Assembly: GCA_024642665.1 (NCBI GenBank)
Contig: JAHEAR010000007.1
Coordinates: 92,452-125,407 of the forward strand
Direction of reading: 5' to 3'
DNA: 32,956 nt
Source: Bacteroidota bacterium
Lineage (GTDB): Bacteria > Bacteroidota > Bacteroidia > Chitinophagales > Saprospiraceae
Positions 10,345 to 16,556 of this stretch are shown here, one piece after another. The position numbers were made by a program, and so were the translations under genes. Under the pieces are notes generated by a model, which saw only the letters and a list, made by a program, of their open reading frames with translations, made no database searches and was not told the DNA's origin. The number at the start of each line of letters is the position of its first letter. The first letter of the stretch is position 1.

Positions 10345-10391
10345 AAAAAATAAAAAAGACCGATCCTAACCCCCCTGTTTGGACCGGTCTT
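10345..10391 (-). terminator. Hairpin with T-run on the minus strand (bidirectional or misplaced terminator)
   Basis: AAGACCGATCC (10356-10366) pairs with GGACCGGTCTT (10381-10391) with one mismatch around a 14-base C-rich loop. Read on the minus strand it is followed by TTTTATTTTTT (10345-10355), a good intrinsic terminator. Read on the plus strand, the A-run precedes the stem and no T-run follows, so it would end transcription of the preceding gene only weakly. No minus-strand gene lies upstream of it. Confidence 0.6.
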
Positions 10392-10443
10392 AATGAGGTA
10401 ATCGACATTTGATCATCTCTATTGACCTTAGGTACTGCATATA

Positions 10444-10519
10444 CAATGCCAAACTTGCATTGAAATGGCTGGTAAATACGTCATTTTGACAGTTAAAAGG
10501 CGATGGCACGCCTTTTGAC
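10444..10519 (+). promoter_or_regulatory. Inverted repeats upstream of htpG
   Basis: Three dyads lie in the htpG leader: CAATGC-N7-GCATTG (10444-10462); the short palindrome GTCATTTTGAC (10480-10490); and GTTAAAAGGCG-N6-CGCCTTTTGAC (10492-10519), whose arms pair at 10 of 11 positions. TTTTGAC occurs twice, 29 bases apart (10484 and 10513). None matches CIRCE. They could be operator sites or a leader hairpin for heat-shock control; no protein can be named. I could not place a confident promoter. Confidence 0.45.
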
Positions 10520-12429: not shown

Positions 12430-12474
12430 GGATGGATCGCATATCTTTTTAACGCAAGCGTTAGCACTAAATAC

Positions 12475-12513
12475 TCTCGCAACACCATAACCATGTGTTG
12501 CGAGATTTTTTTT
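12475..12513 (+). terminator. Intrinsic terminator of htpG
   Basis: TCTCGCAACAC (12475-12485) pairs perfectly with GTGTTGCGAGA (12495-12505) around a 9-base loop and is followed by eight T (12506-12513). It lies 46 bases after the htpG stop. A second small palindrome, TAACGCAAGCGTTA, is at 12450-12463. Confidence 0.93.
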
Positions 12514-12609
12514 ACAGACATCTAAAGCAGGGTCGATGACGACTAGTCAGAAGCGAAGAAAAAGTTTTTGGAATGGGTTTTTAGAAGGGTGCTAAGGAAT
12601 CGTCACCTT

Positions 12610-12726
12610 AAAAAATAATACCACCTGACACAAAAGCTGGGGACCTGTTTTCTCCTTTTATTACTAAAAGGTGAGATTTTGGATGTTATGCAAGGTCACA
12701 CCAAATCTAGAGCCAGGTGGTAATCT
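12610..12726 (-). ncRNA. Candidate structured small RNA, about 117 nt
   Basis: On the minus strand TACCACCTG (complement of 12714-12722) pairs exactly with CAGGTGGTA (complement of 12619-12627), closing a 104-base domain. Inside it, AGATTTGG (12708-12701) pairs with CCAAAATCT (12682-12674) with one bulge, and CCTTTTA-N4-TAAAAGG forms a hairpin at 12654-12671. The closing stem is followed by TTATTTTTT, as in an intrinsic terminator, and a TATATTTG element lies just upstream. No reading frame is present. It could be a 6S-like regulator (a Bacteroidota 6S-Flavo class exists in Rfam and is near this length) or a mobile-element remnant. I could not test a covariance model. Confidence 0.45.
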
Positions 12727-12731
12727 GGATT

Positions 12732-12739
12732 CAAATATA
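12732..12739 (-). promoter_or_regulatory. Putative -7 element for the small RNA
   Basis: The minus strand reads TATATTTG, an exact TAnnTTTG, ending about six bases before the predicted RNA start. A second exact match, TACATTTG, lies at 12745-12752. Neither has a clear TTTG at the -33 position, so the promoter call rests on the -7 element alone. Confidence 0.4.
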
Positions 12740-12828
12740 CTAAACAAATGTAAAAAATTATCATAAATATCCCCTAAATCTGCTGAAAAGTGATTTTTGG
12801 GACTATTCATACGCTATATAGCCTCCTT

Positions 12829-15956: not shown

Positions 15957-16040
15957 AATTACTTTGAATAATAGCCTGCTTTGAAGGATAGACGTAAACC
16001 ATTTACCCTTTGGTTGGGTTTATATCCATAAATTTGTCCT

Positions 16041-16556
16041 GTGCAAAAACAACCAACGGCCGATTTTGCCGAATTTATAGATTTCTTCCCGGAATTAACA
16101 CTCCCTTTAAGCCTATTGCCTGATATAAGTCAGATTCCTGTTGATCCGCTACCGCTGCCCGGCGTACTGCAGGATGCTTTTATTCTCCCTTTTGAAGCAG
16201 ATGAGGTGGATGATTTTACAGAGTTTGTTCCCTTTGGACGACTATCCGGAACAAAAGATTTTTATGCCATGATTTACTGGAAAGCCGGGTTACTGCGTTA
16301 TGAGTATATCCTCGCTACGTATTCAAAAGCAGGAGAGCCATTGAGTCATGCGATTGTAGGTGGAATCCGATATGAAGAAGAGGGAACGCTTCACTCTGTT
16401 GCGATCGTGCAGGAGGATTTACAAATTGTGATTGCGGAAGGATTGGCAGATACCATGATAGAGGGTGTTGATCCCGCACAGACACAGACTTACCAAATGG
16501 CAATTCTGCCTTCAGGTATTATTACTTACGAAACAAATGAAGAAAAAGAAGAATAA
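16041..16556 (+). CDS. Conserved-looking hypothetical protein upstream of rnr
   Basis: A 171-residue acidic cytoplasmic protein with no signal peptide and no family I recognise. The N-terminal ADFAEFIDFFPELTLPLSLL suggests a helix, and the middle has beta-strand pattern (DFYAMIYWKAGLLRYEYILA, HAIVGGIRYEEEGTLHSVAI). The start is GTG at 16041; no ATG occurs in frame before residue 76. A TAAATTTG element at 16029-16036 sits only four bases before the GTG, which would make the message nearly leaderless. Its end overlaps the rnr start by 20 bases, so the two are probably translationally coupled and may act together. Confidence 0.7.
   Translation: MQKQPTADFAEFIDFFPELTLPLSLLPDISQIPVDPLPLPGVLQDAFILPFEADEVDDFTEFVPFGRLSGTKDFYAMIYWKAGLLRYEYILATYSKAGEPLSHAIVGGIRYEEEGTLHSVAIVQEDLQIVIAEGLADTMIEGVDPAQTQTYQMAILPSGIITYETNEEKEE

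Follow-up and report, generated by a model that had tools for sequence, protein, structure and literature searches.

A predicted structured small RNA gene between convergent htpG and cytochrome c peroxidase genes, conserved within a genus of uncultured Bacteroidota

The closest described relatives in kind of the RNA predicted here are GibS of Bacteroides and Rfp18 of Flavobacterium, both of them stand-alone intergenic RNAs that are conserved within their genus. GibS belongs to a set of candidates for which a start site and an intrinsic terminator are reported, and Bacteroides is said to be without obvious homologues of Hfq and ProQ, both according to PMC7366714, while strong folding is stated for Rfp18 in PMC9723704. 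The predicted RNA, which we compared with these two by description, is likewise intergenic, free-standing and conserved within its genus, but unlike them it is enclosed nearly whole by a stem that closes its ends, and nearly every one of its bases is conserved. It is also like 6S-Flavo (RF01685) in its near length (108 positions in that family) and its rod-like minimum-energy fold, and like 6S RNA (RF00013) in the closing stem, bubble and apical hairpin of one of its two competing folds. Text searches in which all terms were required found no paper on small noncoding RNAs in Saprospir- organisms, and none on a small RNA downstream of htpG.

We analyzed a stretch of 32,956 nucleotides from an uncultured Bacteroidota bacterium, referred to here as the window. 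The predicted small RNA (sRNA) gene is on the minus strand of the convergent gap between htpG, a plus-strand gene coding for an HSP90 protein (Pfam PF00183), and a minus-strand gene for a di-haem cytochrome c peroxidase (PF03150), both of which aim into the gap. We consider it probable that this is a structured sRNA gene with its own transcription, directed leftward by a -7 box of the sigma-A type (12739-12732) and ending in a T-run at 12618-12610, and a new structured sRNA, restricted so far to its genus, is the most likely identity of the element. We infer the transcription of this sRNA, its start, its end and its mode of action from the features described below.

Most of the sequence elements listed in the initial annotation were found as claimed, all on the minus strand. 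The exact TAnnTTTG box (TATATTTG, 12739-12732) is ahead of the predicted start and has the same letters in the sister genome, and an exact 9-bp pair of TACCACCTG (12722-12714) with CAGGTGGTA (12627-12619) closes a domain of 104 bases. Read directly from the sequence, this closing stem (P1) lengthens to 11 pairs by an inner G-U and a C-G, which gives a 5' arm at 12712-12722 and a 3' arm at 12619-12629. Directly 3' of it is the T-run (TTATTTTTT, 12618-12610), which coincides with the border of conservation and is the putative end of transcription. The 7-bp inner hairpin CCTTTTA-GTAA-TAAAAGG (P3, 12671-12654; eight pairs in the fold of the sister) is also present, as is the possible pairing of GACCT (12697-12693) with AGGTC (12646-12642), in which one pair is A-U in one sequence and G-U in the other, the pairing being kept. 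The 8-bp inner helix of AGATTTGG with CCAAAATCT was only partly borne out: the pairing exists, but it needs a bulged A, and its register loses one pair in the sister genome. A shifted register of 11 pairs (P2, 12674-12708; 12708-12698 with 12686-12674, with a 2-nt bulge) pairs in both genomes with a single one-sided change (G-U / A-U).

In Flavobacterium psychrophilum the -7 box is placed at -12 to -5, according to PMC9723704, and by this spacing the predicted start would be at about 12727, five bases ahead of the stem, and the RNA at most 118 nt long (12610-12727, both ends being predicted). Upstream of the box, a conserved putative promoter region (12740-12779) contains the blocks CATTTGTTTA and GGGATATTTATG and is identical at 32 of 40 bases by ten-base bins; no TTTG was seen there at the spacing of a -33 element. 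Two further minus-strand matches to TAnnTTTG were noticed, one within the RNA (12702-12709) and the other preceding the proposed box by 13 bases (12745-12752), the second of them not exact in the sister genome. On the other side of the gap, an inverted repeat (12476-12485 with 12495-12504) and, after it, a T-run (12506-12513) belong to htpG itself.

Conservation, not structure, is the stronger evidence for this putative sRNA gene. The genus is represented in our collection by two genomes, the own genome (G000) and its sister (G001). In the sister, too, the element lies between htpG and the peroxidase gene, and over 125 alignment columns the two copies differ by 8 substitutions and a single 1-base indel. 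The RNA element is 93.5% identical between the two, compared with whole-codon identities of 79% in htpG and 78% in the peroxidase gene, and the four-fold degenerate third positions of these genes are near saturation (78/201 identical in htpG and 47/133 in the peroxidase gene, 35-39%). Positions 12610-12729, at 94.2% identity, outrank every other stretch of 120 bases in the syntenic 18.8 kb; the second-ranked one, upstream of htpG, reaches 93.3%, and the median of all is 71.7%. The spacers on the two sides are identical at 46% (12430-12600) and 59% (12761-12826, which takes in part of the conserved promoter region). By ten-base bins, 8-10 of 10 bases are identical from 12610 to 12779, except for 6 at 12750-12759, and the values are 6 just below 12610 and 3-8 beyond 12779; a small conserved patch was also found at 12560-12579. 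Conservation thus sets in where the T-run ends and goes on to some 50 bases beyond the predicted start in the upstream direction, a footprint that is that of a predicted promoter plus transcript and unlike that of an ORF. Across the whole block, no frame is open in both genomes, and the indel puts the frames out of register, so no protein accounts for the block, and comparison of frames, third positions and the synonymous sites of the neighbours detected no coding constraint on the element. This conservation from promoter to T-run, set against near-saturated synonymous sites, argues for the independently transcribed small RNA of the initial annotation, as a predicted transcript.

Several other conserved elements were observed in the same comparison. 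A second conserved noncoding element is located upstream of htpG on the minus strand (10345-10480), of which 70 bases (10356-10425) are identical in the sister; it ends in an 11-bp hairpin (10391-10356) plus a T-run with a folding z of -3.65, has five weak Rfam matches with none at cut-off, and matched three of 60 genomes at E≤0.01, namely the own genome, the sister and a third (G005) in which the match is inside a long reading frame. Ahead of htpG, TGGCACGCCTTTTGAC (10504-10519, plus strand) is identical in the sister, and we take it to resemble a sigma-54 -24/-12 site. In addition, a conserved leader (15960-16040) carries TAAATTTG (16029-16036) before a reading frame that starts at 16041, and in conservation the stretch of 120 bases that starts at 16017 is third within the 18.8-kb synteny.

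Structure by itself is suggestive and no proof of an sRNA. Under scan criteria that were set after the feature had been seen (a stem of at least 8 pairs around 75-150 bases, a tail rich in T, and TAnnTTTG at most 22 bases upstream), the window has a single such site, the sRNA itself, and 60 dinucleotide shuffles have two in all (mean 0.033). When the promoter box was left out, three sites were found in the window versus 2.2 per shuffle, so a stem plus T-run alone is not unusual, and the window shows no enrichment of TAnnTTTG by itself either (30 found, 27.9 expected). The sRNA strand folds with a z of -3.73 in the window (0/200 shuffles as stable) and the opposite strand with -2.00; the element of the sister genome is weakly stable, with a z of just -1.75 (9/200 shuffles).

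Two folds compete for this sequence, and P1, P3 and the GACCU/AGGUC helix (12693-12697 with 12642-12646) are common to both. Both sequences have as their minimum-energy fold a rod made of P1, an interrupted helix that leads to GACCU/AGGUC, an asymmetric bubble with 18 nt on one side and 4 nt on the other, and the P3 hairpin. In the alternative, P1, the P2 hairpin and P3 are formed, and GACCU of the P2 loop pairs with AGGUC as a pseudoknot. The rod has an energy of -35.5 kcal/mol in the window and -34.2 in the sister, versus -29.8 and -30.0 kcal/mol for the P2 fold calculated without the pseudoknot, and the consensus fold of the two sequences consists of P1, P2, P3 and another short helix. All 34 pairs of the P2/pseudoknot fold are kept in both sequences, two of them through one-sided changes, and 33 of the 34 pairs of the window's rod are kept, with two one-sided changes and one pair broken in the sister; the P2/pseudoknot fold explains the substitutions at least as well as the rod. 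No compensatory double change was found in either fold between the two sequences, own and sister, and substitutions shun paired columns no more than expected by chance (P = 0.09 for one fold and 0.27 for the other); with only two sequences, covariation is uninformative and does not decide between the rod and the P2/pseudoknot fold.

Homologue searches returned the element in the genus only. By blastn against 100 genomes including the own one, 16 matched at E≤0.1, and all matches but those of the own and sister genomes were at most 34 nt long. A covariance model of the element (R1) gave 17 of 398 family genomes at E≤1, with 160 bits for the own genome, 162 for the sister and at most 27.5 for the others; over 396 genomes of the order, the own genome alone matched at E≤0.01, the sister being evidently absent from that sample. 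Both R1 searches scored at most eight candidates per genome, a depth at which distant homologues may escape, and within it no genome outside the genus gave a homologue. The best non-genus match (27.5 bits) spans the start of a reading frame, presumably recA, and was discarded as chance; the other weak family matches (15 non-genus genomes at E≤1 in all) were set aside after five of their alignments had been viewed. Furthermore, at 28 htpG loci of the best-scoring relatives R1 found nothing above 15.5 bits, and the stem and T-run scan gave 21 sites, none of them with a promoter box. Among the matches listed, no HtpG from outside the genus exceeds 67% identity; the genus is thus isolated, and absence elsewhere may reflect a lost signal and not a lost gene.

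The initial annotation had compared the size and shape of the element with 6S-type RNAs, and this likeness did not extend to family membership, which is not supported. The Rfam search that it proposed gave no match in the window at gathering thresholds and five weak ones at E≤10, none to a 6S family, and no Rfam family covers the element at its cut-off; RF01685 and RF00013 were silent across the own genome. All 14 controls of the RF01685 run were silent too, and among eight named genomes this model matched the three of Flavobacterium at 82.9-83.5 bits, just below its cut-off of 85 bits, and none of five other Bacteroidota records (among them the sister genome and one labelled Chryseobacterium), so its reach is limited. 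Of 30 relatives, two matched RF01685 at E≤1, the best at 35.1 bits (G014), and none was above cut-off. With RF00013, the own genome had no match at E≤1, and six of 14 control genomes matched, four of them above cut-off. An own genome with no recognisable 6S leaves room for a diverged one.

In this regard, the element could be the 6S-like RNA of the genus, an asymmetric-bubble rod that would bind RNA polymerase as a promoter mimic, diverged beyond Rfam and moved from the gap between zapA and rny, a reading that we consider unlikely. Its positive 6S marks are the rod-like fold, with closing stem, asymmetric bubble and apical hairpin as the minimum-energy fold of both sequences, and a length near that of 6S-Flavo, and nothing else; conservation over the whole length would also suit a housekeeping RNA. 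In the one Flavobacterium locus opened, 6S is between zapA and rny, a position unlike that of the element between htpG and the peroxidase gene, and no common motif with this control was seen by eye. The zapA-rny gap is only 77 bases in both the own and the sister genome, but the rny loci of 16 relatives also had no 6S family at E≤0.5 (16 of 30 loci, with the intergenes viewed in 26), which makes the short gap weak evidence of a 6S move. Against this reading, moreover, the relatives, in which a 6S is to be expected too, yielded no homologue, the bubble is strongly asymmetric, in contrast to 6S RNA (RF00013), the only TAnnTTTG of the RNA is on the 5' arm, and one pair of the rod is broken in the sister. 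A more elaborate version, in which the sRNA would be the missing 6S-type RNA of the lineage, moved beside htpG with its sequence rebuilt and switching between a promoter-mimicking rod and a released pseudoknot with the GACCU/AGGUC helix in both, seems to us improbable.

Similarly improbable is that the element is a 3'-UTR element plus terminator of the cytochrome c peroxidase mRNA, perhaps a processed sRNA, with no promoter of its own. It shares the strand of that gene and is about 100 bases past its stop codon, and a simple terminator scan, which allows loops of 3-8 (P1 encloses 86 bases), found no minus-strand terminator between the two, nor one at the T-run itself. However, the -7 box is conserved at the right distance from P1, the region upstream of it is conserved as well while the spacer between gene and promoter has diverged, and conservation of the loops would be needless for a mere terminator. 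A small peptide gene is very unlikely: an ATG at 12683 on the plus strand begins a frame of 27 codons (22 in the sister) and a minus-strand stretch of 22 codons without an ATG is open in both genomes, but the bases outside these open stretches are equally conserved, and over the 22 shared plus-strand codons only two of five differences are at third positions, though the synonymous sites of the neighbours are near-saturated. Lastly, the end of a mobile or repeat element (REP, MITE or insertion sequence) is hardly credible, since, although a 25-nt piece of the 3' arm resembles a repeated palindrome in a distant genome (G065), the copies elsewhere that the initial annotation had named as a sign of such an origin were not found (single copy in the own genome, where the other matches at E≤1 are of 16 and 18 nt), the place is the same in the sister, plasmid and phage collections gave no match and a 30-base core had no exact match in viral contigs. 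The palindrome in G065 is REP-like, of 12 bp (GTGTCAGGTGTT..AACACCTGACAC), and occurs there in two copies (L005, 1507-1566 and 1755-1814).

For the preferred reading, a new structured sRNA, conservation of nearly every base, beyond a seed and a terminator, suggests that it would act as a folded whole and not as a seed-only antisense RNA. P1 would lock the 5' and 3' ends together and protect them, and the exposed conserved stretch CAUAACAUCCAAAA (unpaired probability above 0.7) could serve as the contact surface, the most likely partner being either a protein or, in trans, a single mRNA or a few. Among 26 start regions in the window no mRNA target was found: the best two duplexes (-51.6 and -51.5) pass only the 5% level of 100 shuffles (-49.2; minimum -55.6) and, with 26 tries, are about what chance would give. 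A possible antisense target on contig 30 (a shared stretch of 16 nt, E 0.45) was rejected; it lies ahead of a tRNA-Glu gene and about 190 bases short of a gene that we take to be gap, and was judged to be outside the leader of the latter.

If transcribed, the RNA is probably important to the cell, being conserved at 93.5% next to flanking genes at 79% and 78%, and it would offer a clean test case for the roles of sRNAs in Bacteroidota.
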